From an uncultured Eubacteriales bacterium (GTDB taxonomy: Bacteria > Bacillota > Clostridia > Oscillospirales > Acutalibacteraceae), in NCBI GenBank assembly GCA_900316435.1, contig ONCY01000013.1, forward strand, positions 1 to 41,423: a stretch of 41,423 nucleotides of DNA. The letters are read 5' to 3'. Every line of letters begins with the position of its first letter. Positions within the stretch are counted from its first letter, which is position 1. Below the pieces are notes generated by a model. That model saw only the letters and a program-made list of their open reading frames with translations. It was not told the DNA's origin and made no database searches. The translations under genes were made by a program, and so were the position numbers. Below are positions 2,933 through 33,379 of this stretch, in pieces.

Positions 2933-3020
2933 AACGTGACGTTCCATCCAAAGCCGCCTTTGGATAACTTTATTTATCATAAAAGTTTCTGCAACGGCGT
3001 GTCATATCTCGCGTGTTTGG
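2933..3020 (+). repeat. Post-stop intergenic element, copy A (after argC)
   Basis: Begins 2 bp after the argC stop with the palindrome AACGTGACGTT, then the hairpin CCAAAGCCGCCTTTGG, an AT-rich stretch, then TTTCTGCAACGGCG and a CTCGCG block. It closely matches copy B after argB and shares modules with the elements after guaB, dnaA, mnmE and the 11.3-kb lipoprotein gene. Confidence 0.8.
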
Positions 3021-3088
3021 AAAGGTAAAAAATTACCCCATCAAAACGCGGCACGCAGCTTTATAATATTATATTTTAGGTATCTATC

Positions 3089-4369
3089 ATGAACAACTAC
3101 ACCTTCATCAACGGCGGCGTAACTTCGCCGCAGGGCTTTACCGCCAACGGAATTTGCGCAGGCGTAAAACAGGCGACCTCCGCCGCAATTACCAAAGCTA
3201 TAAAGGCAAACGACTCCTCGGTTATTCCGAACGGCAAGCGCGACCTTGCGCTTATCGCGTGTAACAAGCCCTGCTCTGCAGCGGCGATCTTCACAAAGAA
3301 CCTCGTAAAATCCGACACTATCTACGTAACGCAAAAGCACCTTGAAAACGGTGTGGCTCAGGCTGTAATAGTAAATTCCGGCAACGCCAACGCCTGCAAC
3401 CCCGACGGCTATGAAAAGGCGGAGGCGATGGCTAAGCTTGCGGCAGACGCTCTCGGAATCGACGAAAACGACGTGATCGTAGCCTCCACGGGCGTAATAG
3501 GTCAGCCACTGCCCTTGGCTCCTATCGAAAGCGGCGTAATCGCGCTCAAGGATATTCTCTCCAAAGAAGGCGGCACAAACGCGGCTGAGGCGATAATGAC
3601 GACCGACACCGTCAAAAAGGAGTGGGCGGTTCAGACCGTAATCGACGGCAAGACTGTAACCATCGGCGGAATTGCAAAGGGCAGCGGAATGATCCACATA
3701 AACATGGGCACCACGCTGTCGTTTGTCACCACCGACGCGGCAATATCGGCTCAAATGCTGCGCTCGGCGCTTATTGAGGCAGCTGACGTGAGCTACAACA
3801 TGGTGAGCGTTGACGGCGACACCTCAACAAACGACACCTTGGCTATCCTCGCCTCGGGATATGCCGGCAACAAAGAAATCACCGATAAAAACGGGGACTA
3901 CAACATCTTCCTCGAGGCTCTTACAGCGGCGTTCAAAAAGGTAGCAAGGCTGCTCGCCTCTGACGGTGAGGGCGCTACAAAGCTGCTCATCTGTAACGTA
4001 AGCGGCGCTGCCGACGAAAAAGCGGCAAAAACTATCGCCAAAAGCGTTATCTGTTCAAGCCTTGTAAAGGCGGCGATGTTCGGCGCGGACGCTAACTGCG
4101 GCAGAATCCTCTGCGCAATCGGCTACAGCGGCGCTCAGGTAAACGACGTAAAGAAAATCGACGTTTTATATAAATCCTCAGCAGGCGAAATCCTTGTCTG
4201 CCAAAACGGCTGCGGACTTGCCTTTGATGAGGAAAAGGCTGAAAAAATCCTTTTGGAAAACGAAATTGAAATCATCATCACGCTTGGCGACGGCACATCA
4301 TCCGCCGAAGCCTACGGCTGTGACCTGACATACGATTACGTAAAAATCAACGGCGACTACCGCACATAA
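3089..4369 (+). CDS. argJ: Bifunctional ornithine acetyltransferase / N-acetylglutamate synthase
   Basis: ArgJ moves the acetyl group from N-acetylornithine to glutamate, regenerating acetylglutamate and making the pathway cyclic; some members also use acetyl-CoA. The 426-residue precursor normally self-cleaves before a threonine nucleophile. The cleavage region is visible as KGSGMIHINMGTTLSF, with the expected nucleophile at Thr208. It differs from the common KGSGMIAPNMATML form at several positions, but the Thr is kept. Other family segments are VNSGNANAC and STGVIGQPLP. Only a weak AGG ribosome binding site precedes the ATG. argB follows 27 bp after the stop. Confidence 0.96.
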   Translation: MNNYTFINGGVTSPQGFTANGICAGVKQATSAAITKAIKANDSSVIPNGKRDLALIACNKPCSAAAIFTKNLVKSDTIYVTQKHLENGVAQAVIVNSGNANACNPDGYEKAEAMAKLAADALGIDENDVIVASTGVIGQPLPLAPIESGVIALKDILSKEGGTNAAEAIMTTDTVKKEWAVQTVIDGKTVTIGGIAKGSGMIHINMGTTLSFVTTDAAISAQMLRSALIEAADVSYNMVSVDGDTSTNDTLAILASGYAGNKEITDKNGDYNIFLEALTAAFKKVARLLASDGEGATKLLICNVSGAADEKAAKTIAKSVICSSLVKAAMFGADANCGRILCAIGYSGAQVNDVKKIDVLYKSSAGEILVCQNGCGLAFDEEKAEKILLENEIEIIITLGDGTSSAEAYGCDLTYDYVKINGDYRT

Positions 4370-4396
4370 GAGAGTTTAGTGTTTAGGAGCAACAAC

Positions 4397-5251
4397 ATGG
4401 ACAATAAAAAACGCGCAAAGGTATTAATCCAGGCAATGCCTTACATCAAAAAATGGTCGGGCGAGACCATTGTTGTTAAATACGGCGGCAACGCCATGAT
4501 AAACGAGGAGTTAAAATCCGCTGTTATGAGCGATTTGGTGCTCATGCAGCTAATCGGCATTAACGTTGTACTTGTTCACGGCGGCGGACCCGAAATCAAC
4601 GCTATGCTCAACGCAATCGGCAAAGAGAGTAAGTTTGAAAACGGAATGCGCGTCACCGATCAGGAAACGATCGACATCGTTCAGATGGTTCTTGCGGGCA
4701 AGGTAAACAAAAGCCTTGTTCAGCTTCTCGAAAGCCACGGCGGCAGAGCGCTCGGTCTTTGCGGACTCGACGGCAAAATGCTCATGGCTGACAAGCTCGT
4801 TTCGGGCGCGGCCGATCTCGGCTTTGTGGGCGAGATCCGCGAGGTCAATCCCGAGCCGCTTCAAAACGCAATGAAGGACGGATATCTTCCTATCGTAGCC
4901 ACCGTTGCCGGCGGTTATGACGGAAACGTTTATAATATCAACGCCGACCTCGCCGCCGCTCAGATTGCGGCTAAGCTCGGCGCTAAAAAGCTTATCCTTA
5001 TGACGGACATCCGCGGCCTTCTCCGCGATGTAAGCGACGAAGAAAGCCTTATTCCCGTTGTAAACGTCAGCGAGGTTCCCATGCTTAAGCGCGACGGAAT
5101 AATAAAGGGCGGCATGATCCCCAAAATCGACTGCTGTGTTGAGGCAGTGCGCAACGGCGTAAACCGCGCCCATATTATCGACGGCAGAATCGAGCATTCG
5201 ATCCTCCTTGAGCTTTTCAGCGACGAAGGCATAGGCACAATGTTCTACTGA
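4397..5251 (+). CDS. argB: Acetylglutamate kinase
   Basis: ArgB phosphorylates N-acetylglutamate, the committed step and usual point of arginine feedback. The product of 284 residues shows the amino-acid-kinase motifs VVKYGGNAM, LVHGGGPEIN and the C-terminal IKGGMIPKI, plus EGIGTM at the end. The ATG at 4397 is chosen over an upstream in-frame GTG because AGGAG lies 7 bp before it. The extended N-terminal helix (AKVLIQAMPYIKKW) is the type seen in hexameric, arginine-sensitive kinases; that sensitivity is an inference. A dispersed element starts directly after the stop. Confidence 0.97.
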   Translation: MDNKKRAKVLIQAMPYIKKWSGETIVVKYGGNAMINEELKSAVMSDLVLMQLIGINVVLVHGGGPEINAMLNAIGKESKFENGMRVTDQETIDIVQMVLAGKVNKSLVQLLESHGGRALGLCGLDGKMLMADKLVSGAADLGFVGEIREVNPEPLQNAMKDGYLPIVATVAGGYDGNVYNINADLAAAQIAAKLGAKKLILMTDIRGLLRDVSDEESLIPVVNVSEVPMLKRDGIIKGGMIPKIDCCVEAVRNGVNRAHIIDGRIEHSILLELFSDEGIGTMFY

Positions 5252-5371
5252 AACGTGACGTTTCATCCAAAGCCGCCTTTGGAAAGGTTTTAATTATCAA
5301 AATGTTTCTGCAACGGCGTGCCCAATCTCGCGGGAACATAGGGTTTGTTAATATCAAACGTCTGATTCGCG
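5252..5371 (+). repeat. Post-stop intergenic element, copy B (after argB)
   Basis: Starts at the base after the argB stop. Order of modules: AACGTGACGTT, the CCAAAGCCGCCTTTGG hairpin, AT-rich spacer, TTTCTGCAACGGCG, CTCGCGGGAA, GTTTGTTAATATCAAAC and CGTCTGATTCGCG. This is the most complete simple copy and shows that the copies after guaB and dnaA are the same family on the other strand. Confidence 0.85.
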
Positions 5372-5410
5372 ACTAAAAATCACATAAAAAAATTAAAGCG
5401 AGGTGTCCGC

Positions 5411-5824
5411 ATGATAACCATACGGCCAATGACAATTGAAGACTACGACGAGGTTTACGCGATGTGGCTTATCACCAGCAAGCGCGCGCTTTCCTCAGCG
5501 GATGAACGCGGACAAATCGAGCGGTACCTCAAACGCAACGAGGGGTTGTCGCAGGTTGCTCTCATCGACGGAAAAATCGTCGGCACGGTGCTTGCCGGGC
5601 ACGACGGCAGACGCGGCTTTATCCACCACATGGCGGTGCTTCCCGAATATCGCAGAAGGCACATCGGCCACGCCTTAGCTGAAAAGGCAATTGAAAAAAT
5701 CAAATCGGAGGGCATTGAAAAAACACATATTTTCTGCTACCGCGACAACGAAACGGGACAGAATTTCTGGCGCGATTTCGGCTTTGTAAAGCGCGACGAC
5801 ATCTTTGATTTCAGCTATCAGTAA
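5411..5824 (+). CDS. GNAT-family N-acetyltransferase inside the arginine cluster
   Basis: A 137-residue protein with a complete GNAT fold signature: ITIRPMTIEDYDEV at the start, MAVLPEYRRRHIGHALAEKAI (acetyl-CoA-binding loop, about residues 77-97) and a C-terminal NFWRDFGFVKRDD strand. It lies between argB and argD, with GAGGTG before the ATG. The position suggests a link to arginine metabolism, for example as a short N-acetylglutamate synthase, but ArgJ already supplies acetylglutamate, and GNAT proteins have many substrates. It could equally be a housekeeping acetyltransferase that moved in. Substrate unknown. Confidence 0.85.
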   Translation: MITIRPMTIEDYDEVYAMWLITSKRALSSADERGQIERYLKRNEGLSQVALIDGKIVGTVLAGHDGRRGFIHHMAVLPEYRRRHIGHALAEKAIEKIKSEGIEKTHIFCYRDNETGQNFWRDFGFVKRDDIFDFSYQ

Positions 5825-5854
5825 TCGCGTTTAAATCAGAAAAGAGGGGTTAAA

Positions 5855-7021
5855 TTGAATACGAAAGAAAAAGACTTAAAATATATAATGCACACCTACG
5901 GCCGCTACGATGTCGCACTTAAAAGCGGCAAGGGCGCCACAGCCTACGATGAGGATGGCAAGCGCTATATCGACGTAAGCTCGGGTATAGGCGTAAACTC
6001 TCTCGGCTACTGCGACGAGGGCTGGGTCAAGGCTGTATCACAGCAGGCAGGCACCATTCAGCACATGTCAAACTATTTTTACAGCTCACAGGCAAGCGAC
6101 CTTGCCGAAAAGCTCTGCTCGCTCACAGGCCTTGCCAAGATCTGCTTCGGCAACAGCGGCGCCGAGGCAAACGAATGCGCCATAAAAATCGCGCGCAAAT
6201 ACAGCTTTGACAAATACGGCGCCGAGCGCAACGAGATAATCACGCTCAAAAACTCCTTCCACGGAAGAACCGTAACCACACTCTCGGCTACGGGTCAGGA
6301 GGTTTTTCACAACTTCTTCTTTCCCTTCACCCGGGGCTTTAAATACGCCGAGCCCAACAACCTCGACGACGTAAAGAACAACATCGACGAAAAAACCTGC
6401 GCAATTATGCTTGAGGTCGTTCAGGGCGAGGGCGGCGTAAACATTTTAGACAAGGATTTTGTAAAGGGAATCGCCGACATCTGCTCACAGAGCGACATCC
6501 TGCTCATTATCGACGAGGTTCAGACCGGCGTCGGAAGGACAGGCAAGCTGTTCGCTTACGAGCACTACGGCGTAAATCCCGATTTGGTCACCGTAGCAAA
6601 GGGCATAGGCGGCGGACTTCCGATAGGTATCTGCATGTGCGGCGAAAAGCTCAAGGACGTAATGTCGCCGTCAACCCACGGAACCACCTTCGGCGCGAAC
6701 CCCGTTGTATGCGCGGGAGCAAATTATGTTCTCGGCAGGGTTTCCGACGAGACTTTCCTCAGCGAGGTTGAAAAAAAGGGAGCCTATCTTGAAGAAATGC
6801 TCCTTAAAATCGACGGCGTTAAAAACGTACGCCGACTGGGACTGATGGTCGGAATCGAAATCGAAAACGACGCCCACGACACAGCGGCAAAATGCGTCGC
6901 GAACGGCTTATTGATTATTACCGCAAAGGATCTGCTCAGGATGTTGCCTCCGCTTACAATCACAACAGCTGAGCTTGACGAAGCGGTCAACATACTGGAA
7001 AAAACATTAAAGGAGAATTAA
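5855..7021 (+). CDS. argD: Acetylornithine aminotransferase
   Basis: ArgD makes N-acetylornithine from the semialdehyde with glutamate as amino donor, using pyridoxal phosphate. The 388 residues contain the class-III aminotransferase pattern LLIIDEVQTGVGRTG and the PLP lysine in VAKGIGGGLPIG (Lys249), with CFGNSGAEANE for phosphate binding and FHGRTVTTLSATG. The start is TTG, supported by AGAGGGG 7-8 bp upstream; no ATG with a site lies nearby. argF starts 2 bp after the stop, so translation is probably coupled. Confidence 0.97.
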   Translation: MNTKEKDLKYIMHTYGRYDVALKSGKGATAYDEDGKRYIDVSSGIGVNSLGYCDEGWVKAVSQQAGTIQHMSNYFYSSQASDLAEKLCSLTGLAKICFGNSGAEANECAIKIARKYSFDKYGAERNEIITLKNSFHGRTVTTLSATGQEVFHNFFFPFTRGFKYAEPNNLDDVKNNIDEKTCAIMLEVVQGEGGVNILDKDFVKGIADICSQSDILLIIDEVQTGVGRTGKLFAYEHYGVNPDLVTVAKGIGGGLPIGICMCGEKLKDVMSPSTHGTTFGANPVVCAGANYVLGRVSDETFLSEVEKKGAYLEEMLLKIDGVKNVRRLGLMVGIEIENDAHDTAAKCVANGLLIITAKDLLRMLPPLTITTAELDEAVNILEKTLKEN

Positions 7022-7023
7022 AA

Positions 7024-7956
7024 ATGAAACACCTGCTTAAGCTTGAAGACTGGTCAACCGAGGAAATAATCAGCACCCTAAACCTCGCCGACCAGCTTAA
7101 ATACGAGCAAAAACACGGAATCGAGCACAAGCTGCTCAAGGGCAAAACACTGGGCATGATTTTTGAGAAGTCAAGCACCCGTACCCGCGTATCGTTTGAG
7201 GTAGGCATGACTCAGCTGGGCGGCTATCCGCTGTTCCTCAGCTCAAACGACCTGCAGATCGGCAGAGGCGAGCCCGTTGAGGACACCTCGCGCGTTCTGT
7301 CTCGCTTTATCGACGCAATTATGATCCGCACCTTTGCCCAGAGCGAGGTCGAGGATCTCGCAAAATACGGCTCTATCCCGATCATCAACGGTCTTACCGA
7401 CTACTGTCACCCCTGCCAGGTTCTTGCCGACTTAATGACTATCCGCGAGTTCAAGGGCAAGCTCGAGGGACTTAAAATGTGCTTTATCGGCGACGGCAAC
7501 AACATGCTCAACTCCCTTGCGGTAGGCGCTCTGCGCACAGGCATGTCGTTCTCGGCGGCGTGCCCCGACGGATATTTCCCCCCCGAGCACATCATGGAGT
7601 TCGGCAAGCAGTTCGGCGATAAGTTCCAAATTGTAAACGACCCGATGGAAGCCGCCAAAAACGCCGACGTTATCTACACCGACGTATGGGCTTCAATGGG
7701 ACAGGAAGAGGAAAAGAAGGCTCGCGAGGCTGTATTTGCCGGCATTTATCAGGTAAACGACGAGCTGATGTCCGTCACCAACGACGAGTGCATGGTGCTC
7801 CACTGCCTGCCGGCTCACCGCGGCGAGGAAATCACCGCAGATGTGTTTGAGGCTCACGCAAACGAGATCTTTGAGGAAGCCGAAAACCGCCTCCACGCTC
7901 AGAAAGCCGTCCTTGTTGAATGTCTGCTCGACAAAAAGGACGAAGACGTAATTTGA
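7024..7956 (+). CDS. argF: Ornithine carbamoyltransferase
   Basis: ArgF condenses ornithine and carbamoyl phosphate to citrulline. The 310-residue product has the carbamoyl-phosphate motif SSTRTR near residue 46, the ornithine-loop motif DYCHPCQVLAD, and the C-terminal VLHCLPAHRGEEIT containing the catalytic Cys. Length and motifs are ordinary. It is the last gene of the arginine cluster; only a weak A/T-rich hairpin (TTTTAG/CTAAAA) follows the stop. The biosynthetic context argues against a catabolic arcB role. Confidence 0.97.
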   Translation: MKHLLKLEDWSTEEIISTLNLADQLKYEQKHGIEHKLLKGKTLGMIFEKSSTRTRVSFEVGMTQLGGYPLFLSSNDLQIGRGEPVEDTSRVLSRFIDAIMIRTFAQSEVEDLAKYGSIPIINGLTDYCHPCQVLADLMTIREFKGKLEGLKMCFIGDGNNMLNSLAVGALRTGMSFSAACPDGYFPPEHIMEFGKQFGDKFQIVNDPMEAAKNADVIYTDVWASMGQEEEKKAREAVFAGIYQVNDELMSVTNDECMVLHCLPAHRGEEITADVFEAHANEIFEEAENRLHAQKAVLVECLLDKKDEDVI

Positions 7957-8026
7957 TATTTTAGATATTCTAAAACTTTTGGTTTAGTTTTACTCCGTAT
8001 GATTTGGTAATTCAAAACAGCGTTCC

Positions 8027-8056
8027 TTGACATTTACCGTATAACTGTTTTATTAT
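8027..8056 (+). promoter_or_regulatory. Sigma-A type promoter for the serine-hydrolase lipoprotein
   Basis: TTGACA at 8027 and TATTAT at 8051 with an 18-bp spacer, about 32 bp before the ATG at 8088. It marks the end of the arginine transcription unit and an independent start for the next gene. Confidence 0.75.
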
Positions 8057-8087
8057 ATACATAACATGATTGGTAAGGAGAGATACC

Positions 8088-9224
8088 ATGAAAAAGGTTT
8101 TGGCATTATTATTGAGCGGCGTTATAACAGCTTCCGTGTTTGCCGGATGCAGCTCATCGCCGTCGGAAAGCTCCTCATCCGCAGCAGCGGATACCTCGGC
8201 AACCGAGCAAACGGAACCGCAGACAACAGTTCAGCCGCTTGCCGACAGCGTCAAGAAGCAGCTTGATGAGGCTCTGTCAAAAGAGGCGTTCAAGGGCGTT
8301 ACACAGATCGTGCGCGGCGACACGGTGATTTATCAATACACCGACGGCAGCGATGATAACGGACAGCCTATGACTATCGACGCTTCTCTGCCGATCGGCT
8401 CGGTGTCAAAACAGTTCTGCGCCGCCGCAGTAATGCTCCTTTGCGACCGGGACAAGCTGAGTGTGGACGACAAGCTTGATAAGTATTATTCCGATTATAA
8501 ATCAGGTAATAAAATTACGATCAAAAATATGCTTAACATGAGTTCCGGAATCCCCGACTATTACGAAATGTTTATGGATGGCTCAAAGCTGGGCGCGGAT
8601 GAAGCGGAAAACATCAAAAAAATCAAGGAAATGCTTTTTGCAGAAGAGCTTAATTTTGAGCCGGGAGACGACTATGGTTATTCCAACTCCAACTACCTCC
8701 TGCTTGCGGATATCGTAGAACAGGTCAGCGGAACTCCTTATCACGAGTTTATTAGAAAAAACATTTTTGAACCGCTTGAAATGACCCATACCGGCTTTGT
8801 GGAAGATATAAAAGACAGCCCCGAATGGGCGTCGGCGCTTTCCAAAACGGAACTAATGACAGAGACTTCCTGCCCGGGTTTGACAAAGGGCGCGGGCGAT
8901 ATTGTAATCAACGCCGCAGACATGGACAAGTGGATGCACGGACTAAGCGGCGGAAAGGTCATTTCGTCCGAAAGCTATAAGAAAATGACAGAGGACGTCA
9001 ATGAAAACAGTTATGAGGATTACTGCTACGGCTTATACAAAATGTCTTACGACGGAGTAGGTCACGTCGGGCAGATACCGCCCCACTTCGGCGCAGTGGA
9101 CTATTTCAGTACCGAGCAGGGAATATACCTGTTTGCCGCGTCAAACGACCCGCGCGGAAGCTCGTTTGTGCAGCAGCTCCCGCAGACGCTTCTGGATATC
9201 CTGATGGGTAATACTAATTCCTAA
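8088..9224 (+). CDS. Lipoprotein serine hydrolase, beta-lactamase / D-alanyl-D-alanine carboxypeptidase family
   Basis: A 378-residue exported protein. The N-terminus is a lipoprotein signal (hydrophobic stretch to SVFAGC, Cys21) followed by a Ser/Thr-rich linker. The catalytic domain has the class-C-like SxxK motif SVSK (Ser105, Lys108), the YxN motif in GYSNSNYLLL, and HVGQ where the third K/HxG box is expected. This points to a penicillin-binding-like esterase or peptidase outside the membrane rather than a drug-resistance enzyme. The ATG at 8088 has AAGGAG upstream and fits the signal peptide better than the GTG six codons earlier. It has its own promoter and terminator. Confidence 0.88.
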   Translation: MKKVLALLLSGVITASVFAGCSSSPSESSSSAAADTSATEQTEPQTTVQPLADSVKKQLDEALSKEAFKGVTQIVRGDTVIYQYTDGSDDNGQPMTIDASLPIGSVSKQFCAAAVMLLCDRDKLSVDDKLDKYYSDYKSGNKITIKNMLNMSSGIPDYYEMFMDGSKLGADEAENIKKIKEMLFAEELNFEPGDDYGYSNSNYLLLADIVEQVSGTPYHEFIRKNIFEPLEMTHTGFVEDIKDSPEWASALSKTELMTETSCPGLTKGAGDIVINAADMDKWMHGLSGGKVISSESYKKMTEDVNENSYEDYCYGLYKMSYDGVGHVGQIPPHFGAVDYFSTEQGIYLFAASNDPRGSSFVQQLPQTLLDILMGNTNS

Positions 9225-9233
9225 TAAAAATCT

Positions 9234-9268
9234 GACCGGACAACCCCTAAGGGCTGCCCGGTCTTTTT
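9234..9268 (+). terminator. Rho-independent terminator after the serine-hydrolase gene
   Basis: GACCGG pairs with CCGGTC around an inner CCC/GGG stem, followed directly by CTTTTT. It lies 10 bp after the stop codon. Confidence 0.85.
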
Positions 9269-9383
9269 CATTTTAATGGAAAGTTAATATATCGGCAGGG
9301 TTTCTGCAAGCGCAACTCAAGCAGCGGCATTTTCGTCACAAAGAAACAAATCTGATTTCGGTGAACACCTGCCGCTGCCGCCT

Positions 9384-9402
9384 GACAGGGGCAAGCCCTG
9401 TC
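9384..9402. repeat. Short palindrome in the 416-bp gap before guaB
   Basis: GACAGGG and CCCTGTC separated by GCAAG, followed by ACTAC. It resembles the small dispersed palindromes common in gut Clostridia. The rest of 9270-9469 shows no convincing coding frame or RNA gene. Confidence 0.5.
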
Positions 9403-9469
9403 ACTACAATATAAACCTCATTGTTTGCTGCTAATTTAATTCCGTATTCCGCATTGTTAAGTTGCGCCG

Positions 9470-9640
9470 GTCGCGTGACGCGACGGACAAGACGCGCAAG
9501 CGTGACGCTTGATCCATGACGCGAATCAAACGTTTGATATTAACAAACCTTATATTCCCGCGAGATATGATGCGCCGTTGTACCAAGTTTTCCAATTAAC
9601 CCGACTTTTCCAAAGGCGCGCTGGATAAAACGTCACGTTT
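9470..9640 (-). repeat. Post-stop intergenic element, copy C (after guaB)
   Basis: Read on the minus strand it starts directly after the guaB stop: AACGTGACGTT, CCAGCGCGCCTTTGG, an A/T-rich spacer, ACAACGGCGCATC, CTCGCGGGAA, GTTTGTTAATATCAAAC, CGTTTGATTCGCG, then two extra hairpins, AAGCGTCACGCTT (9498-9510) and GTCGCGTCACGCGAC (9470-9484). Same orientation relative to its gene as copies A and B. Confidence 0.85.
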
Positions 9641-11134
<1,494 letters not shown>

Positions 11135-11310: not shown

Positions 11311-12099
11311 ATGAATAGACTATTTTTTAAATTAACCTGCACTGTTGCGGCAGTCATCCTTGCCGCTTCGCTTACAGCGTGCTCCGGCGACTCATCAAAC
11401 AATAAAGAGCCTGAGACCACAGCCGCTCAAACCCAGGCAACCGAGCCTTTGACTACAACTGCAAAAGACCTTAAAAAAGAAACCGACCTTACAAAGCTCC
11501 ACAAACCCGACGAAAAAAAAGATCAGTTCGCCGGATACTGGAAAATAACCGAAGGCACGGGCTCTCAGCTTAAAAGCTTCACCTTATGCTTTGACGGCGA
11601 CGGAAAGTCGTTTATGCTGATAGGCACTATGGGTTACCGAGGAGGATATGAAATAAAAGAAAAAGACGGCAAGTCAGTATTCAGCTCACAGATGACCTTC
11701 GGTTTGGACGGCGACTTCACCTACGAGTTCAACAAAGAACGAACAAGCGTGGTGCTCACCAACACTGCCGACAACAACAAAACAACAATGGTCAGAGAGG
11801 AAAGCTACAACAGCATTCCCGAGCCTGAAAAGAACCCCGTAATTGACGAAAAGCTTTTGGGCGCGTGGAAAGACGACACGGGCGCCTACCTTTACTTTGA
11901 CAAAAACGGCATAATGTACGCCAATCAGGTCGGCGTGAATTTCTCGTTCTACAACTACTCGGCAAAGGACGGAAAAATCACCCAGACCTATACAATGAAG
12001 GAAAAGACCACCGAGGAAGCTACCTACAGCTTTGACGGAGAAAAGCTGCTTTACAACAACTACGAATATCAAAGGATATCTGCCGACGAATTGGTATAA
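11311..12099 (+). CDS. Lipoprotein with two lipocalin-like repeats, function unknown
   Basis: A 262-residue secreted lipoprotein. A signal peptide ends in the lipobox LTAC (Cys24), followed by a linker rich in Thr, Glu and Gln. The rest looks like two related beta-rich units: one from about residue 73 (FAGYWKITEG) and one from about residue 187 (LLGAWKDDTGAYLYFD). Each starts with a G-x-W motif and has short Gly/Asp turns, as in lipocalin-like or DUF5640-type domains. RBS AGAGGTAG. It has its own promoter and terminator. It is probably on the outer face of the membrane; ligand and role unknown. Confidence 0.8.
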   Translation: MNRLFFKLTCTVAAVILAASLTACSGDSSNNKEPETTAAQTQATEPLTTTAKDLKKETDLTKLHKPDEKKDQFAGYWKITEGTGSQLKSFTLCFDGDGKSFMLIGTMGYRGGYEIKEKDGKSVFSSQMTFGLDGDFTYEFNKERTSVVLTNTADNNKTTMVREESYNSIPEPEKNPVIDEKLLGAWKDDTGAYLYFDKNGIMYANQVGVNFSFYNYSAKDGKITQTYTMKEKTTEEATYSFDGEKLLYNNYEYQRISADELV

Positions 12100-12178
12100 G
12101 GCAGCGTGCAGCATGACGCTGCACCCAACGCCGCCTTTGTAAAGCTCGGTATTATAGGAAACCGCGGCACAACGGCGG
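12100..12178 (+). repeat. Post-stop intergenic element, copy E (after the lipoprotein gene)
   Basis: Starts at the base after the stop with a hairpin of arms GCAGCGT/ACGCTGC, then CAACGCCGCCTTTGTAAAG and GCACAACGGCG. The first hairpin replaces AACGTGACGTT of copies A-D, while the middle modules are recognisable. Shortened relative to copy B. Confidence 0.65.
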
Positions 12179-12211
12179 GTCAAAATAATGCAAATATCTG
12201 TAACGTTAAAA

Positions 12212-21846: not shown

Positions 21847-22096
21847 AGTGATAAACCTCTCTTATCTTTTTATTATTTATTTTATTAGTAATAGTAGGGG
21901 ATGTGGAAACCAACTAAATTCATAATTTTCCGCATCTTTATCGGCATTTTTAATCAACACCAAAACAAGGATACAGCATGAATAAACGTGAATGCCAAAT
22001 TTGATATATTAACAATAGATTTGACATCTTTTATAATCATTCAATATTTATCCTAATTTTAACAATCAATCCTATGTTGAAACCTGTGAATACAAG

Positions 22097-22373
22097 GTCG
22101 GCTGAGCCGACGGACAGGACGCGAATCAGACGTTTGATATTAACAAACCTTCTGTTCCCGCGAGGCAGCGTGACGCTGCACCCAAGACGCGCAACTGAAA
22201 AATGTGAAAAAGGCAACCGTCATACCCGCGCAAACGTAACGCTTGATTCACGACGCGAATCAGAAGTTTGATATTAACAAGCTTTTTGTTCCCGCGAGTT
22301 ATGATGCGCCGTTATACCGATTTTTCCTACAAACCGACTTCTAAATAGGCGCGCCGTATGGAACGTCACGTTC
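22097..22373 (-). repeat. Post-stop intergenic element, copy D, composite (between dnaA and dnaN)
   Basis: Read on the minus strand, about 20 bp after the dnaA stop: GAACGTGACGTTC (22361-22373), GGCGCGCCTATTTAG, ATAACGGCGCATC, CTCGCGGGAA, GTTAATATCAAAC, CTGATTCGCG, a decayed AAGCGTTACGTTT hairpin, then a second partial copy containing GCAGCGTCACGCTGC (22165-22179), AATATCAAACGTCTGATTCGCG split by a few bases, and GTCGGCTCAGCCGAC (22097-22111). It looks like one element with another inserted or fused. The remaining part, 21847-22096, is A/T-rich with no gene visible. Confidence 0.8.
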
Positions 22374-22393
22374 CCGCGCTTCGAGTAATGTAA

Positions 22394-23713
22394 TTACCTG
22401 TCGCGGATGTTTTTTATTATGTCGTCGATAAGCTCTTTTACTTTACGGTCATTTTCAATCTGCTTCTGGATTTTCTGAATCGAATATATAATTGTGGAAT
22501 AATGCCTTCCGCCGAACTCGTCGCCGATATTAACCATCGAAAGAGCGGTGATTTCTCTTGTAATGTAGATTGCAATATGACGGGCGTTGCTGATATTAGC
22601 GCTCTTGTTTTTCTGAGAGCGGATTTCGTCAGCGGAAACGCCGAAGGTGCGGGCAACCTCGTCGATAACGCGTTCAACGGTAACCTCGGGCGGAACGTCG
22701 TTGTTGAGAATATCCGAGATAACCTCCTGAGCCGACGAAATGGTAATTTTTTCGTGATTAAGCAGATACTTTGCCTTGAGCTTTTTAACTGTTCCCTCGA
22801 GCTGACGGATATTTGATTTAAGCTTTGAGGCAATAAACTCGCATACCTCGTTTGAAAGCTCAACGTCGAGCAGCTCAGCCTTGCGCTTAATGATAGCTAT
22901 CCTTGTTTCAATATCCGGCGGCTGGATATCCGCGATAAGATCCTGCTCAAAGCGTGAACGCAGGCGGTCGGCAAGAGTTTTTATTTCTTTAGGAGGACGG
23001 TCGGATGTCAAAACAATCTGTTTGTGAGCGTCGTAGAGAGCGTTGAAGGTGTGGAAGAATTCCTCCTGCATACCTTCCTTGCCGCCTAAGAACTGAACGT
23101 CGTCCACAAGAAGAACATCGACCTGGCGGTACTTCTGGCGGAACTCGATCATAGTTTTCATTTTAAGCGACTCAACAAGCTCATTGATGAAGTCGTCAAT
23201 TTTTATGTAGCAGATATTTTTGTCGGGATAATTTTTTTTGATTTCGTTTTGGATTGCAAAAAGAAGGTGGGTTTTACCCAGTCCCGAGTTGCCGTATAAG
23301 AACAGAGGATTGTAGGCGTTTGACGGATTTGTAGCCACAGCCATGCAGGCAGCGTGAGCAAAATTGTTTGACGAGCCCACAATAAAGGTATCAAAGGTGT
23401 ACTCATAGTTGTTGCCGATTTCCTCAACCTTTTTTTCAACGTGATCCTTCTCGCCTATTTCATCGGGGGTTTTAAGCTCGATTTTAAACTTGTTATCAAA
23501 AATCGCTTCAAATGCCTCATTAAGCAGCGGAATATAGCAGCGGGTGATGGTCTGACGGTGAAAATCGTTGGGAACAAGAAGATAAGCGGTGTTGCCGTCA
23601 AAATCAAGATCCAGCGGTTTAATACGAACAATCCAAGTGTTGTACGCGACGTCGGTTATTTTCGATTTACAGTAGGAGCAGACCAGCTCCCAAGCGTCGC
23701 CGAATGAATTCAT
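22394..23713 (-). CDS. dnaA: Chromosomal replication initiator DnaA, with divergent DNA-recognition residues
   Basis: DnaA binds the origin and melts it in an ATP-dependent way. The 439 residues show domain I (about 1-80), a short linker, the AAA+ domain with Walker A GNSGLGKTH (141-149) and Walker B VDVLLVDDVQFLG (198-210), and the C-terminal helix-turn-helix domain IV (about 345-439). Domain IV is clearly aligned with E. coli DnaA but differs at box-reading residues: Lys370 for Arg399, His379 for Gln408, His404 for Asp433, Tyr405 for His434, Ser406 for Thr435; Arg378 and Thr407 are kept. The family signature GRDHTT reads GRHYST. The gene has a good promoter and a long leader. Confidence 0.98.
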   Translation of the reverse strand: MNSFGDAWELVCSYCKSKITDVAYNTWIVRIKPLDLDFDGNTAYLLVPNDFHRQTITRCYIPLLNEAFEAIFDNKFKIELKTPDEIGEKDHVEKKVEEIGNNYEYTFDTFIVGSSNNFAHAACMAVATNPSNAYNPLFLYGNSGLGKTHLLFAIQNEIKKNYPDKNICYIKIDDFINELVESLKMKTMIEFRQKYRQVDVLLVDDVQFLGGKEGMQEEFFHTFNALYDAHKQIVLTSDRPPKEIKTLADRLRSRFEQDLIADIQPPDIETRIAIIKRKAELLDVELSNEVCEFIASKLKSNIRQLEGTVKKLKAKYLLNHEKITISSAQEVISDILNNDVPPEVTVERVIDEVARTFGVSADEIRSQKNKSANISNARHIAIYITREITALSMVNIGDEFGGRHYSTIIYSIQKIQKQIENDRKVKELIDDIIKNIRDR

Positions 23714-24971: not shown

Positions 24972-25049
24972 AAAGGAGAATTGACAGCATTTTCATTTGT
25001 CTGATAACTGAAAGGAGAATTGACAGCATTTTCATTTGTCTGATAACTG
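24972..25049. repeat. Perfect tandem duplication of 39 bp
   Basis: Two identical, adjacent 39-bp units (24972-25010 and 25011-25049), each starting AAAGGAGAATTGACAGC. The unit is 13 codons long, and a minus-strand open frame (24956-25138) would carry the repeated peptide SYQTNENAVNSP, but that frame has no good ribosome binding site. A recent duplication with no base differences. Nothing else is recognised in 24929-25284. Confidence 0.85.
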
Positions 25050-25442: not shown

Positions 25443-25445
25443 GTA

Positions 25446-26270: not shown

Positions 26271-26299
26271 TGTAAAGCCCCCAATTATTTTATATGATT

Positions 26300-26328
26300 A
26301 TTTTACACTATTTTTTAATAAATTGCAA
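26300..26328 (-). promoter_or_regulatory. Promoter for the PRTase-like gene
   Basis: On the minus strand TTGCAA, 17 bp, TAAAAT, 30 bp before the ATG and just after the serS terminator. Confidence 0.65.
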
Positions 26329-26338
26329 TGGGATTTTG

Positions 26339-26378
26339 TAAAAAAATACACAACCGCCAGATTAAAGCGGTTGTGTAT
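26339..26378 (-). terminator. serS terminator
   Basis: On the minus strand a 12-bp perfect stem ATACACAACCGC / GCGGTTGTGTAT with a 9-nt loop, running into a T-tract, 11 bp after the serS stop. Confidence 0.95.
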
Positions 26379-26389
26379 GATAAAGAGCA

Positions 26390-27670: not shown

Positions 27671-27697
27671 TTTATAATCTCCTTTTTAATTGGTAAT

Positions 27698-28549
27698 TTA
27701 ACTTAGTTTATTTGATAACTCGGTCAGTTCCTCGTCCGAGTAGAATTCAATTTGTAAAACGCCGCCCTGTTTTCCTTTTGTCTTGGTGACGCTTATTTTT
27801 CTGCCCAAAGCCTCGGAAAGACTAAGCTCGACCTCTTTGTAGTAATTCGGAACTTTTTCCGCAGGTTTCTCGGGCTTCTTTTCCGATGTCAGCTTTTTAC
27901 AAAGCTTTTCGGTTTGGCGCACGGACAAATCATTCTTTACGATTTGCTCGCATACATCCTTCATGATTTCTTCATTCGGAAGTGTGAGCAGTGCTCTTGC
28001 GTGACCCGCGGATATCTTGTCTGCTTTAAGATATTCTGCCGCGCTTTCAGGAAGCTTTAAAAGTCTGAGGGCGTTTGCCACCGCGGGACGGGATTTTCCG
28101 ACCGAGCGGGCAACCTCCTCCTGGGTAAATCCGTGCTCGTTCATCAGAACCTCGTAGCCCAGCGCTTCTTCAAGCGGAGTCAAGTCCTCGCGCTGCAAGT
28201 TCTCAATAAGCGCAAGTTCCATTGTCTCTGACTCGCTCAGCTCTCGAATAATTACGGGAACCTCTGTAAGTCCTGCCATTCGGGACGCGCGGTACCTCCG
28301 CTCACCAGCTACAATTTCATAGCCGCCGAGCGTCAGCGGACGGACAAGTATCGGCTGCAATAATCCGTGCTTTGAAATACTGTCTGCAAGCTCGCTCAGC
28401 GCCACTTCGTCAAAATCCTTTCGGGGCTGAGAGCGGTTCGGCTCAATTTCCGATATTTTTATGTTTACTGTGCCGTTGTTTTCTTCGTTATCGTTTTCTA
28501 TAAAAATCGCGTTAAGCCCTTTTCCAAGGCCGCCCAGTTTTTTTGCCAT
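27698..28549 (-). CDS. parB: Chromosome partitioning protein ParB (Spo0J)
   Basis: ParB binds parS, spreads along the chromosome as a CTP-dependent clamp and loads condensin. The 283 residues begin [14 protein letters not shown], then show [10 protein letters not shown]-type box I ([11 protein letters not shown]), box [17 protein letters not shown] (CTP-binding region), and a helix-turn-helix [23 protein letters not shown]. The C-terminal dimerisation part follows. Its ATG overlaps the parA stop by 1 bp (TGATG), and AAGGAG lies inside the parA end, so translation is coupled. Confidence 0.97.
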
Positions 28550-29316
28550 CAGCGACGCTCCTTTGCTATAATTTCTTTTGCAAGCTCGGTGTATGCTAAG
28601 CTGCCCTTACAGTTTTTGTCGTAGTATATAACGGGCATTCCGAAGCTCGGCGCCTCCGACAGCCTGACTCCCCTGTTTACCACGGTTTTAAACACCTTTC
28701 CGGGGAAAAATTTTTTTACTTCCTCAACTACCTGCTGAGTCAGGTTCAGTCTGCCGTCATACATTGTCAGGAGCACGCCTTCAAGCTCGATCGAGTAGTT
28801 ATACTGCCTTTTAATACGCCTTACGGTGCTCATAAGCTGAGACAGACCTTCAAGCGCGTAGTATTCACACTGAATGGGCACAATGAAGCTGTCTGCAAGC
28901 GTAAGAGCGTTTGCCGTAATAAGACCGAGCGACGGCGGACAGTCGATAATAATGTAGTCGTAATACTGTTTTATCGGCAGTATTGAGTTTTTAAGCAGAG
29001 CTTCTCTGTGCGGTTTTTCCGCTATTTCAAGCTCCGCTGCAGCAAGGCTTATGCTCGACGGTAAAATGTGAAGGTTTTGGTACGGTGTTGTAAGCACGCA
29101 TTCTTCTGCCTTAACGCCGTCTACCAATATGTTGTAGGTTGAAAACTTTACCTTGCTTTTGTCGATTGCCACGCCGCTTGTGGCGTTACCCTGAGGGTCG
29201 GCGTCGACAAGCAAGGTCTTTTTGCCGAGAGCTCCCAAGCACGCAGCCAAGTTTACGGCGGTAGTGGTTTTACCCACTCCACCTTTTTGATTTGAAATCG
29301 CTATTATCTTTGCCAT
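28549..29316 (-). CDS. parA: Chromosome partitioning ATPase ParA (Soj)
   Basis: ParA/Soj is a DNA-binding Walker ATPase that positions ParB-parS complexes and in Bacillus also controls DnaA. The 255-residue protein starts with the deviant Walker A motif NQKGGVGKTTTAVNLA and continues with VDADPQGNATSG and IIIDCPPSLGLIT. No N-terminal helix-turn-helix is present, so it is the chromosomal type. It has its own promoter with an extended -10, and a parS site lies about 180 bp upstream. Confidence 0.97.
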   Translation of the reverse strand: MAKIIAISNQKGGVGKTTTAVNLAACLGALGKKTLLVDADPQGNATSGVAIDKSKVKFSTYNILVDGVKAEECVLTTPYQNLHILPSSISLAAAELEIAEKPHREALLKNSILPIKQYYDYIIIDCPPSLGLITANALTLADSFIVPIQCEYYALEGLSQLMSTVRRIKRQYNYSIELEGVLLTMYDGRLNLTQQVVEEVKKFFPGKVFKTVVNRGVRLSEAPSFGMPVIYYDKNCKGSLAYTELAKEIIAKERR

Positions 29317-29331
29317 AAAATCACCTTTTTG

Positions 29332-29360
29332 ATTATAACATAAATCAAGATAATTTTAAA
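29332..29360 (-). promoter_or_regulatory. parA promoter
   Basis: On the minus strand a perfect extended -10 (TGTTATAAT) with a weak -35 TTTAAA 17 bp upstream, 15 bp before the start codon. The spacing leaves a very short leader with an AAGGTGA site. Confidence 0.7.
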
Positions 29361-29497
29361 TAGCTTATTTATAACTTTTAAAAATTTCTTATTATTATAC
29401 TAATATCCAATAAAACCCTTTAACATCTGTTTTAAAGCGTTTTAATGGAAATTAGTATTATTTCAAAAAGCGAAAATAACAGAGATGTTTCTAAAAA

Positions 29498-29513
29498 TGT
29501 TTCACGTGAAACA
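29498..29513. promoter_or_regulatory. parS centromere site 1
   Basis: TGTTTCACGTGAAACA, a perfect 16-bp palindrome identical to the B. subtilis parS consensus, in the intergenic space between noc and parA. Confidence 0.97.
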
Positions 29514-29516
29514 CGC

Positions 29517-29547
29517 AAAAAGACGCACACAAAAGTGGGCGTCTTTT
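29517..29547 (-). terminator. noc terminator
   Basis: On the minus strand AAAAGACGC-CCAC / GTG-TGCGTCTTTT with a T-rich end; the A/T flanks on both sides make it potentially bidirectional. It lies 3 bp from parS site 1. The rest of the 309-bp noc-parA gap is A/T-rich and shows no gene. Confidence 0.8.
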
Positions 29548-29625
29548 CGCAAGGGGTTAGATAAGGAAATGGGTATGAGTGGAACGGATGCAAAAGCATC
29601 CAAGTGGAAAGTATATTAATTCGGC

Positions 29626-30459
29626 TTACGCCGTTTTTTCGGCTCGTTCTACCTTAGGCTTCGGAATTCTGATTGTGTATTCGATAAAATTGTCATGGTC
29701 TGTTTTGTGTGTTTCAGCGTCAATTCCCGAAAGGCGCATGGTGTCAACGGCCTTGTTAATAGTGTTCACAAAAATTCTTATATCTTTTATCACCGCTTTA
29801 CTTTTCCCCCTGTTTTGCTTTTTTGGGGTTGATTGAATCAAGCTGCCGACAAGCGTTTCTGTTTGAGATACATTTAGTCCGTCGGTAATAACTCTTGAAA
29901 GCGCCTCTCGTCTGATTGACTCGTCTTCCAGCCGAAGAAGTGCGCGGGCGTGGCGTTCACTCAGCCCTGTTTTTTCAATCCATTCCTGCTCCTCACTGCT
30001 TAACCTTAAAAGGCGCAGCTTGTTTGCAATCGTAGATTGTGTTTTGCCGAGCTTTTCCGCTGCCTGCTCCTGAGTTAATCCGTAGCGACGAATAAGTCTT
30101 GAAATCCCGCGGGCCTCCTCGAATATTCCGAGGTCGGCTCGCTGGAGATTTTCAAGGAGCGCATATACGGCAGACTCTTTGTCAGTGCACTTGACTACTA
30201 TACAGGGAACTTTTTTTAGTCCTGACATCGCTGAGGCACGCAAGCGCCTTTCGCCTGCTACAATTTCGTATTCCGCGGAACTTATTCTGCGAACTATCAA
30301 CGGTTGCAAAATTCCGTTTTCGGATATGGATTGCGACAGAGCTTTGAGCTCTGATTCATTGAACTGCTTGCGCGGCTGTGATTTGTTCGGTCGGATTCTA
30401 ATAATAGGAAGCTCGGTAATCTTGTTTTCGCTCTTAATAAAAAAATTCAACCGCATCAC
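29626..30459 (-). CDS. noc: Nucleoid occlusion protein / second ParB-family protein
   Basis: A 277-residue ParB paralogue: box I IRPNKSQPRKQF, box II IVAGERRLRASAMSG and a helix-turn-helix YGLTQEQAAEKLGKTQSTIANKL whose QSTIANKLRLLRL matches Noc more than Spo0J. The position directly between rsmG and parA is that of B. subtilis noc. Noc keeps the division septum off the nucleoid; that role is inferred. The start is ambiguous: GTG at 30459, ATG at 30456 or a TTG three codons on, because AGGG overlaps the first two. No perfect Noc-binding palindrome was seen here. Confidence 0.88.
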   Translation of the reverse strand: MMRLNFFIKSENKITELPIIRIRPNKSQPRKQFNESELKALSQSISENGILQPLIVRRISSAEYEIVAGERRLRASAMSGLKKVPCIVVKCTDKESAVYALLENLQRADLGIFEEARGISRLIRRYGLTQEQAAEKLGKTQSTIANKLRLLRLSSEEQEWIEKTGLSERHARALLRLEDESIRREALSRVITDGLNVSQTETLVGSLIQSTPKKQNRGKSKAVIKDIRIFVNTINKAVDTMRLSGIDAETHKTDHDNFIEYTIRIPKPKVERAEKTA

Positions 30460-30580
30460 CCTATGTCAGCTTCAGGCTTGTCCCTGTGCTGTTATAATAT
30501 CACATAAGGTGTGCGGCGTTTGTCGAACAGTGAGCAATTATTTGATTTTGTTTTTTAGAAATGAGCGTCTTTTTGTCGGA

Positions 30581-31294
30581 TTATAAGGGCTTGGCTTTTA
30601 TGCGTCCGTTGTTGCGCGGGTATTTATCGGGAGTCGGATGTATTTTTTCAATTTCAACAAGACTGCGGCAGCCTCCGTTAAATGGGAGTTCAAATGTATT
30701 GGCATTTATCAGCTTTCCTCCGAGGATTTGTATAGCTTTTTTTGATGAGCTGATTTCTTCGTCTGCGCTACTTCCTTTAAACGCTATGAATTTACCCGAC
30801 AGCTTTATAAACGGCAGACAGTACTCGCTCAATGTGTTGAGCTGAGCTACCGCGCGTGATACAACAAGATCAAAGCTTTCACGCAGGTCTAAATCCTGTC
30901 CGTACTCCTCTGCCCTGCCCTGCAAAAATTCCGCGTCAATGTCAAGCTCGGTCAAAAGTGCGTTGAGAAACAGAAAACGCTTTTTTAAACTATCCAGCAA
31001 ATGCAGCTCAATATCAGGTCTGACAATTTTCAGGACGACCCCGGGAAAGCCCGCACCTGTTCCGATGTCGAGCACCTTTGCGTTTTGAGGAATGTCACAG
31101 TAATTCAGAACGGATAAGCTGTCGGCAAAGTGCTTTACGGCTACGCCCTCGGCGTCGGTTATCGCGGTGAGGTTTATTTTTTCGTTCCATTCTTTCAGGA
31201 GTTTGTAGTAAATCTCAAATTTTGAAAGCTGTTTTTCTGTAAGCTGTATCTTGTAATCGGCTGTTGCCGAGATTAGTATGTCACGCATTTGCAT
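30581..31294 (-). CDS. rsmG: 16S rRNA m7G527 methyltransferase RsmG (GidB)
   Basis: RsmG methylates G527 of 16S rRNA with S-adenosylmethionine. The 237-residue product shows the SAM motif [17 protein letters not shown] and the conserved [11 protein letters not shown] near the start. The ATG at 31294 is preferred because AGAGGA lies 7 bp upstream inside the end of mnmG, giving a 14-bp overlap and translational coupling; the longest frame begins eight codons earlier without a site. The C-terminus, with its [15 protein letters not shown], is the usual ending. Confidence 0.96.
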
Positions 31295-33167
31295 GGTTTG
31301 ATCCTCTGTTTGCCGCAAGCCAAATCAGCAGGACGCTTATGTCTGCAGGTGATACTCCCGAAATCCGCGAAGCCTGACCGATATTTAGCGGCTTGATTTT
31401 ATTGAGCTTTTCCTGTGCCTCAAGGCGTAAGCCTTTAAGGGTTTTGTAATCGAAGTCGGTTGGCAGCAGTTTGTTTTCAAGCTTTTTCATCTGTTCAACC
31501 TGCTTTAACTGCTTTTGAATATAGCCCTCGTATTTTATTTCAACCTCGACTTGTTCAAGCAGGTTTTGTTCAAGAGCCGGTCTGTCTTTGTCAAACGGCG
31601 TTAAGCAGGAATAATCGAGTTGAGGGCGCTTCATTAAATCAATCAGGCGAACGCCCGTTGTGATTTCAGATGTTTCACGTGAAACAAGAAGTTTGTTCAA
31701 CTCTTCGCTCGGTGAGATGGTGGTTAATTTAAGGCGCTTGATTTCGACCGTTTTTTGTTCCTGTTTTTTAAGGAACTTTTGCCATCGCTTTTCGCTGATC
31801 AACCCGAGAGCGTAGCCTGTTGGAGTTAGGCGCTCGTCGGCGTTGTCCTGACGAAGCACAAGGCGGTACTCGCTTCGGGACGTCATCATTCTGTAGGGTT
31901 CATTTGCCCCCTTTGTTACAAGGTCGTCGACGAGGGTGCCGATATAAGAGTTTGCGCGCGTAAGGACAAGCGGTTCCTTGCCCTGAACCTTTAATGCGGC
32001 GTTTACGCCAGCGACAAAACCTTGAGCCGCGGCTTCTTCATAACCCGAGCTACCGTTAAATTGTCCTGCGCCGTATAGTCCGTTATAGTCTTTAAATTCA
32101 AGAGTGGCATTCATGGCGGTCGGGTCAACGCAGTCGTATTCAATGGCGTATGCCGGGCGCATAATAACGCAGTGCTCCAAACCCTTGATGGTCTGATAGA
32201 ATTTCAGCTGAACTTCCTCGGGTAGCGAGCTGCTCATGCCCTGCATGTACATTTCCTCGGTGTTTTCGCCGCAGGGTTCAATAAAGAGCTGGTGACGCGG
32301 TTTATCTGAGAAGCGCATGACCTTGTCCTCAAAACTTGGGCAATAGCGCGGGCCCACGCCTTCAATTCTTCCGGCGTATAAGGGCGAGCGGTGTATGTTG
32401 TCGAGGATGATTTGCTTTGTGCGGTCGTTCGTCCAGCTGATGTGGCAGTCGACCTTGTTTTCGCCGAGGCTTTCTGTTTCATAAGAAAACGGCTGCGGAG
32501 GTTCGTCACCTTTTTGAACCTCAAGTTCTGAGAAGTCGATGGAACGGCGAAGTATACGCGCAGGCGTGCCTGTTTTAAAGCGTCTTAAAGGCAGGTCGAG
32601 TTCCTTTAGAGAAAGAGCGAGCTTTGTTGCCGGAAACATTCCGTCGGGGCCGCTTTCGTAGCTGACCTCGCCGACGTATATTCTGCCGCCGAGGTATGTT
32701 CCGGTAGCCACAACAACGGTTTTGCAAAGATACTGAGCAAGCATTTGTGTTGTAAGCATCCAAGCGTTTTCGTGCTTTTCAATGCTGATTATTTCAGCCT
32801 GACGCAATTCAAGATTCTCCTGAAGCTCCAGCTTATGTTTCATTACCTCTGAGTATTTGCGACGGTCGATTTGAGCGCGGAGCGAATGAACGGCAGGGCC
32901 TTTTCCGCGGTTGAGCATTCTTGACTGCAAAAAGCATTCGTCGGCGGTTTTGCCCATTTCGCCGCCGAGGGCGTCAAGCTCGCGGACAAGGTGGCCTTTT
33001 GCTGTTCCGCCTATCGACGGGTTACACGGGCAGTTGCCCACAGCATCCATGTTGATTGTAAATATAGCTGTGCGGCAGCCAAGGCGTGCGGCGGCAAGCG
33101 CGGCTTCGATTCCCGCGTGTCCCGCGCCGATGACTGCTACATCGTAATTTCCTGCAAAGTATGTCAT
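31281..33167 (-). CDS. mnmG: tRNA uridine-5-carboxymethylaminomethyl modification enzyme MnmG (GidA)
   Basis: MnmG works with MnmE to modify the wobble uridine of several tRNAs, using FAD, folate and glycine. The 628-residue protein starts with the FAD motif [17 protein letters not shown] and has [14 protein letters not shown] and [21 protein letters not shown]. The ATG at 33167 fits an AGGGTG site 6 bp upstream better than the GTG three codons before. A perfect parS site is embedded in codons for LVSRETSE (31671-31686). A 203-bp gap with a large hairpin separates it from mnmE. Confidence 0.97.
31671..31686. promoter_or_regulatory. parS centromere site 2, inside mnmG
   Basis: TGTTTCACGTGAAACA again, identical to site 1 and about 2.2 kb from it. 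The site forces the local codons to read VSRET-like residues, so DNA and protein constraints coincide. Confidence 0.96.
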
Positions 33168-33201
33168 GTTTAACACCCTGTTTAATGGTTAGTGGTTTAG
33201 T

Positions 33202-33274
33202 GTAGGGGCGCACCCGTGTGTGCGCCCGAAAACGTATCTGATATATCAGGGCGCACACACGGGTGCGCCCCTAC
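33202..33274. repeat. Large perfect hairpin between mnmE and mnmG
   Basis: Two 26-bp arms that are exact inverse complements (33202-33227 and 33249-33274), starting GTAGGGGCGCACCCGTG, around a 21-nt loop. The loop contains GAAAACGTATCTG, shared in sequence with the neighbouring post-stop element, and CTGATATATCAG, itself a palindrome that reaches into the right arm. Similar GTAGGGGCG palindromes are dispersed in gut Clostridia. It is read through if mnmE and mnmG share a transcript. Confidence 0.92.
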
Positions 33275-33310
33275 GAATGTAATGGAAATGTTTTTATTAT
33301 TCTTTGTTTG

Positions 33311-33379
33311 GATGCGCCGTTGCAGAAACGTATCTGTTATATAAGGTTCTCAAAAGGCGCGCCGGTGCTACACCCGTAG
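33311..33379 (-). repeat. Post-stop intergenic element, copy F (after mnmE)
   Basis: On the minus strand it starts right after the mnmE TAG: CTACGGGTGTAG (a 4-bp stem), CCGGCGCGCCTTTTGAG, then TTTCTGCAACGGCGCATC. The first hairpin is different from copies A-D but the following modules match. It ends about 40 bp before the large hairpin. Confidence 0.7.

Follow-up and report, generated by a model that had tools for sequence, protein, structure and literature searches.

A probable REP/BIME-like family of mosaic palindromic repeats concentrated at gene 3′-ends in one genus of the Acutalibacteraceae

Six copies of a mosaic element lie in a 41,423 base stretch of DNA from an uncultured Eubacteriales bacterium of the family Acutalibacteraceae (GenBank assembly GCA_900316435.1, contig ONCY01000013.1), each reading in the direction of the upstream gene and beginning at the stop codon of that gene. 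The arrangement raises the question of whether these are 3′ untranslated region (3′-UTR) elements acting on the transcript or mobile repeats that persist at the ends of genes. The stretch, referred to here as the window, is the entire contig C83 of a 2.09 Mb genome in 161 contigs (97.3% complete, 6.8% contaminated). The elements probably belong to a family of mobile palindromes resembling repetitive extragenic palindromes (REPs) and bacterial interspersed mosaic elements (BIMEs), concentrated in one genus and persisting at gene 3′-ends. The original prediction, which held that all copies are placed in one fixed orientation, is partly confirmed, as the observation is real for the six copies and extends to a large family, but the fixed orientation fails.

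The pattern CGCCTTTGG-N10-40-CAACGGCG has 44 exact matches in the genome (19 forward and 25 reverse) and the reversed control pattern has none, so the copies exceed chance. A covariance model built from 22 copies and searched with a cut-off of E up to 0.01 found 96 matches, which form 76 arrays when matches in the same orientation and less than 300 bases apart are joined. The model misses one of the six copies in the window (at 12101), and all counts are therefore minimal. A unit consists of a palindrome followed by CGCCTTTGG...CAACGGCG, often by a second module and, in 40 of the 76 arrays, by an inverted palindrome within 80 nt of the end of the model; the remaining 36 have none there, and the reversed control gave 0. 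A perfect hairpin of at least 5 bp is found just 5′ of the core in 65 of 76 arrays, compared with 1.6% of shuffles and 10 of 290 decoy windows. The arms are mostly 5–6 bp and widely varied, the loop is mostly TGA or CAC, and the tail is mostly ATCC, AGGA or ACCC. Common arms are GGAACG, GCAACG and GCAGCG with loop TGA, and GCCGC with loop CAC. The conserved core CGCCTTTGG...CTGCAACGGCG is predicted to fold, and its ends can pair (CGCC with GGCG, TTG with CAA) in 22 of 22 copies, which were picked by that very pattern. The second module, CTCGCGGGAA...GATTCGCG, was painted in 48 of the 76 arrays, and the model used to find the arrays itself includes it.

Palindromes and whole units stack and nest within arrays. 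The reverse complement of one 3′ module (H3e) contains a 5′ unit (H5c), and other kinds of 3′ module resemble 5′ units. Four closely similar short copies of about 110 bases (L131, L130, L129 and L127, at C30:3251, C36:6374, C52:15446 and C64:4633) carry no second module and end in ACAG and an A-tract; this short form is perhaps a recently active subfamily. At a further locus (L097, G000:C84:28605-28885), two copies are joined tail to tail in inverted orientation.

None of the 76 arrays lies within a gene called by a purpose-written script trained on the window. In 7 arrays one neighbour is beyond the end of the contig or stretch, and the 69 with both neighbours comprise 25 sense and 18 antisense arrays between co-directional genes, 20 between convergent genes and 6 between divergent genes. 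The single orientation is hence a property of the six-copy sample, as 18 of the 43 co-directional arrays in the genome are antisense, and fixed orientation as a rule of the family is ruled out. The original prediction was to fall if copies were randomly oriented or frequent in 5′ regions; divergent copies are few, yet orientation is only mildly biased, with a sense to antisense ratio of 25:18 in this genome (p = 0.36), 33:16 in relatives (p = 0.02) and 58:34 when pooled (p = 0.016). For comparison, 235 array-free intergenic regions in the fetched loci comprise 180 co-directional, 22 convergent and 33 divergent regions, convergent regions making up 6.4% and divergent regions 37.8% of the intergenic length; this background is local, since the loci were chosen for holding arrays. 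Convergent regions, which make up 9.4% of the regions by count, are over-used: they hold 20 of the 69 arrays, more than either that share (p = 3e-6) or their 6.4% share of length (p = 7e-9) would give, and divergent regions are depleted by length, with 6 of 69 arrays against 37.8% (p = 6e-8).

The one-sided feature of the family is position at stops, not orientation. Edges were located with a hand-typed module library, the 5′ edges being remeasured, and 5′ and 3′ edges were taken with slightly different scripts. Where the 5′ edge faces a stop (50 arrays in this genome), it falls within 15 nt of it in 40 and between −12 and +4 in 34. In contrast, the 3′ edge of co-directional antisense arrays is within 15 nt of the stop it faces in only 5 of 18 (p = 1e-4). 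Uniform placement in the free space would put the 5′ edge no further than +4 nt in 3.2 of 45 arrays, or in 10.3 if 45 nt on the far side were unavailable, whereas 33 are observed there. In five arrays (C16, C60, C74:41487, C116:4886 and C116:10409) the loop TGA is itself the called stop, and TAG stops are over-used beside arrays, at 12 of 42 compared with 41 of 327, a total that includes the 42 (p = 0.002). By eye, sense copies away from stops often start right behind the T-tract of a terminator (C150:148, C102:10580, C73:38522 and C113), and several antisense or divergent copies start beside an apparent −35 box of the opposite gene (C36:5157, C39:22305, C160 and C161). The family seems to occupy gaps as far as the border of functional sequence.

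In the window, the first hairpin of all six copies starts at a position between −4 and +1 nt relative to the stop codon's end. The gene names used (argC, argB, guaB, dnaA, mnmE and others) are presumptive, and come from the original prediction or are ones that we take to apply. On the forward strand, the copy 3′ of argC (2931–3020) has its hairpin at 2932–2944, +1 relative to the end of the TAA stop at 2928–2930, a core at 2955–2999 and a truncated second module. In the copy 3′ of argB (5249–5372, forward), the TGA stop at 5249–5251 is within the left arm of the stem TGAAACG-TGA-CGTTTCA (5249–5265, start −3), and the core (5274–5318) and second module (5327–5371) follow. The reverse-strand copy 3′ of guaB (9469–9641) takes the final A of TAA into an arm of its hairpin (9641–9627, start −1), has a core at 9573–9618 and a second module, and ends 3′ in two inverted palindromes. 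The forward-strand copy at 12101–12179 follows an open reading frame of 262 aa at 11311–12099, which is what the supposed “11.3-kb lipoprotein gene” turns out to be. Its lowest-energy hairpin (12101–12122, start +1; an alternative is 12106–12124) precedes a core at about 12132–12177 with no second module, and it is this copy that the covariance model missed at E 0.01. The double copy 3′ of dnaA (22096–22397, reverse) has hairpins at 22397–22385 and 22374–22360 and a core plus second module at 22251–22353; the TAA stop is inside the first stem, GTAAT-TAC-ATTAC (start −4), and inverted palindromes and, in 22117–22193, a further second module are also present. Finally, the copy 3′ of mnmE (33279–33380, reverse) uses the G of TAG as the first base of the stem GCTAC-GGGT-GTAGC (33380–33367, start −1) and has a core at 33315–33359 and no second module. 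The order of parts said to be shared by all six is thus only partly common, as GTTTGTTAATATCAAAC is present only at the argB, guaB and dnaA copies (two times at dnaA) and the second module is cut short at one copy and missing from two.

Adjoining the mnmE copy, 33202–33274 contains GTAGGGGCGCACCCGTGTGTGCGCCC and its reverse complement in inverted arrangement, resembling a GTAG-type REP pair, and GTAGGGGC or its complement was found in six further loci of the genome. An exact tandem repeat of two 39 base copies is located at 24972–25049. When the window was compared with Rfam families, only two tRNAs were found at gathering scores, and 21900–22420 gave nothing up to E = 1.

Exact matches to the core pattern were found in 88 stretches of public genomes, mostly titled uncultured Ruminococcus, Clostridiales or Clostridia, with a few titled otherwise (Lachnoclostridium sp. 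MSJ-17, an Oscillospiraceae bin and Ruminococcaceae bacterium P7). Scoring 24 candidates in each genome at E up to 0.001 gave covariance matches in 54 of 161 genomes from the genus. Among 59 genomes of relatives, this one included, 10 match at E up to 0.01, and none of the 23 that come from other families of the order is among these. Because the record titles of the matching stretches are mixed, restriction to the genus falls short of proof. The 88 loci hold 142 model matches in 108 arrays, none within called genes, of which 33 are sense, 16 antisense, 25 convergent and 8 divergent, and 26 have an unknown neighbour; some loci are orthologous to sites in this genome and do not form a fully independent sample.

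Copies have been gained or lost between species. The argC-argJ gap contains the element in G000, G006 and RUG081, and none is present in 28 of 28 other loci of the genus, where the argC stop is in place; G024 carries its own copy 3′ of argB, at a contig end. The carriers form a group of bacteria from gut and rumen, and genomes with RUG names are presumably rumen genomes. Further empty sites correspond to C36:6374 in G006, C79 in RUG14363 and guaB in RUG277. At C36:6374, G006 is empty apart from four bases, ATTA, that are present only in G006. The suggestion that the elements are repeats belonging to gene 3′-ends therefore stands as far as concentration there and gain or loss among relatives are concerned, without the fixed orientation.

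Different palindromes are found at the same stop in different species at C128:2826, C116:10409 and C150:7787. At C128:2826 the register is kept in four genomes with the stop and arm combinations TAG/GCCGC, TAA/AAAACG, TGA/TGAAACG and TAG/GGTGCG. Of the copies at C116:10409, that in G006 is imperfect and that in RUG081 nested. Arms are unchanged between species at C60, C116:4886 and argB, and those at C60, where the gene is just 5′ of what we take to be a dnaK-like start, are the same in three genomes. Of 82 comparisons of orthologous sites at 22 positions, 17 have a core on both sides, and these were scored by script as 5 with the same arms, 5 with changed arms and pairing kept, and 7 in which one or both partners have no perfect 5-bp hairpin near the stop. 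By eye, with argC versus L203 corrected, the arms are the same in 6 and differ in 4, the latter spread over three sites and including one (C116:10409 versus L199) in which the relative has its hairpin in a nested unit 2 nt farther along. The remaining 65 were labelled empty by the strict core pattern, and in at least 7 of these a hairpin, or an element in stacked or diverged form, is visible (by eye: C37/L196, C52/L261, C76:276/L209, C149/L209, C128/L078, mnmE/L258 and argB/L229); 53 of the other 58 are argC or argB comparisons.

Like REPs, BIMEs and REPINs, the family consists of short intergenic palindromic units near the 3′-end of the upstream gene, occurring singly or as inverted pairs with linkers, and the palindrome sometimes supplies the stop codon. 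It differs in its long conserved linker modules, the wide diversity of its arms and the loop TGA that forms the stop in five arrays. The 20–40 nt palindromes, high copy number and intergenic position expected of REPs were all found (76 arrays, 65 with the hairpin), as were the inverted units with linkers expected of BIMEs and REPINs. By structure and placement the family would thus be a variant of REP/BIME-like repeats. No published description was found among the literature matches listed, and the letters of the unit sequence gave no literature match. Stop-proximal REPs in E. coli were reportedly the subject of a ribosome-stalling study by Liang, Rudd and Deutscher in 2015. According to an excerpt of PMC12306157, 446 of 4,072 E. 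coli REPs are within 15 nt of a stop, and REPs at that distance stall ribosomes (citing its reference 17). The family hairpin is equally close in 40 of the 50 stop-facing 5′ edges, but its stem often takes in bases of the stop codon. Likeness also extends to ERIC, YPAL, RUP, NEMIS and other miniature inverted-repeat transposable elements (MITEs), which in the part of PMC2229807 consulted are non-coding, about 100–200 bp long and found as empty and filled sites; some are co-transcribed with their neighbours, and for MITEs such as ERIC orientation matters to mRNA stability. The ends of the present family, in contrast, are palindromes of varying sequence, its modules stack, and no target duplication was seen at the one empty site compared.

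If these were ordinary GTAG or CGTC REPs moved by a REP-associated tyrosine transposase (RAYT), the palindromes would carry the tag and a RAYT would be at hand. GTAG-type repeats are present in the same genomes, and of the 25 genomes of the genus that were searched, 11 have RAYT-like proteins. However, GTAG is at the expected end of 1 of 66 hairpins and CGTC of 0 of 66 (8 of 66 counting any side or strand), and this genome, which may be incomplete, has no RAYT match, and no cognate transposase was found in it. In relatives, the RAYT loci have no flanking element. An excerpt of PMC3733652 places REPs mainly between co-directional and convergent genes, less than 20 bp from 3′-ends, notes that GTAG termini often supply a TAG stop, that G.T pairs are frequent in GTAG stems and that CGTC REPs apparently also occur without a dedicated transposase, and puts both kinds mainly in Proteobacteria, with Clostridia not among the phyla named in that excerpt. 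As the family fails both the tag and the RAYT tests, it belongs to neither the GTAG nor the CGTC super-family, and this explanation is extremely improbable, although the family may, by analogy, still work like them. Neither RAYT nor IS200 could be accepted as the mover, as no clear link was seen between the presence of RAYT and copies: a RAYT-like match was found in 8 of 14 copy-rich genomes, 2 of 10 copy-free genomes and G013, which has few copies. Y1 transposase genes were found in 13 of 24 genomes, and three RAYT-like proteins tested were below the NCBIfam cut-off for REP_Tyr_transpos. In G013 and G024 a RAYT-like gene (L228:2778-3275 and L229:2769-3263) lies in the argJ-argB interval, overlapping the stop of argJ, and carries an inverted GTAG repeat pair inside its reading frame. 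Others were seen beside arg genes in relatives (L229:3-383, G066:C24:15911-16396, G076:C8:19885-20382 and G121:C122), and none in this genome.

That the hairpins are intrinsic transcription terminators that multiplied is very unlikely. They do stand directly 3′ of stops, and the C37 array fills a gap where RUG081 has a terminator-like hairpin (by eye), but the tail is ATCC, AGGA or ACCC in 51 of 66 hairpins and not a T-tract, separate terminators precede some copies and follow others, and the argC and argB copies are between closely spaced co-directional genes. This candidate was rejected. Nor could antisense copies be accounted for as hidden behind terminators, as 7 of 20 antisense and 4 of 30 sense copies have a terminator separating them from the stop, which is not significant (p = 0.09), using a scanner that misses some terminators. 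An account in which the repeat is raw material and selection holds the hairpin in stop register, as a functional 3′-UTR RNA controlling termination or blocking 3′ exonucleases, is unlikely. In its favour are the stop register kept at C128:2826 while the arms differ, the identical arms at C60, the over-use of TAG stops and the mild preference for sense. Against it, 34 of 92 co-directional arrays are antisense and the element is mostly absent from orthologous argC and argB sites. The first five pairs of 141 distinct hairpins, from this genome and related loci, include 40 non-Watson-Crick cells (6 G.T, 13 A.C and 21 other), and the excess of G.T expected of a selected RNA stem was not found among them, in hairpins that were themselves chosen for pairing.

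We therefore favour a REP/BIME-like family whose units would behave as non-autonomous mobile palindromes. As no called gene is interrupted, copies persist where coding sequence, promoters and terminators are spared, above all at the stop codon, probably under purifying selection. The arms would be rewritten as matched pairs, probably through replacement from other copies or through template switching during replication, which can rewrite both arms together (in an excerpt of PMC8794818); such copying is suggested because G.T pairs are not in excess among the mismatches. Several points weigh against this account. The family has no linked transposase: NCBIfam assigns the single Y1 gene found in this genome to IS200/IS605, and the element does not flank the RAYT genes of relatives, where 3 of 14 RAYT loci (12 distinct places) hold a core anywhere. 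No target duplication was seen at the single empty site compared by eye, C36:6374. Counted by number, divergent regions show no depletion (p = 0.3). The exact hugging of stops is greater than purifying selection alone readily produces, and it is weaker in relatives, where 26 of 59 hairpin starts facing a stop are between −9 and +5, than in this genome (35 of 46 within 15 nt on a like measure). Pairing is not always kept, as seen in the 7 of 17 comparisons above, and the choice of hairpins with at least 4 of 5 Watson-Crick pairs biases the count of pair types.

Under the favoured account of mobile palindromes, a sense copy, once transcribed, would present the terminating ribosome with a hairpin, which by analogy with the E. 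coli REPs located this near to a stop (within 15 nt) could affect termination and mRNA stability. A bolder proposal, which we consider doubtful, is that the stop codon belongs structurally to a palindrome that changes fast and that is rewritten between species, both arms and the codon together, while the register is held. If true, translation termination would be subject to a genome-wide control layer set by pairing and place instead of sequence, with a repeat as the means of its spread. The crowding of such repeats at stops becomes approachable in Clostridia, as the family offers many species, both filled and empty sites at the same genes, and palindromes that have been rewritten where they stand; these can tell selection on RNA apart from template-switch copying and from target choice.

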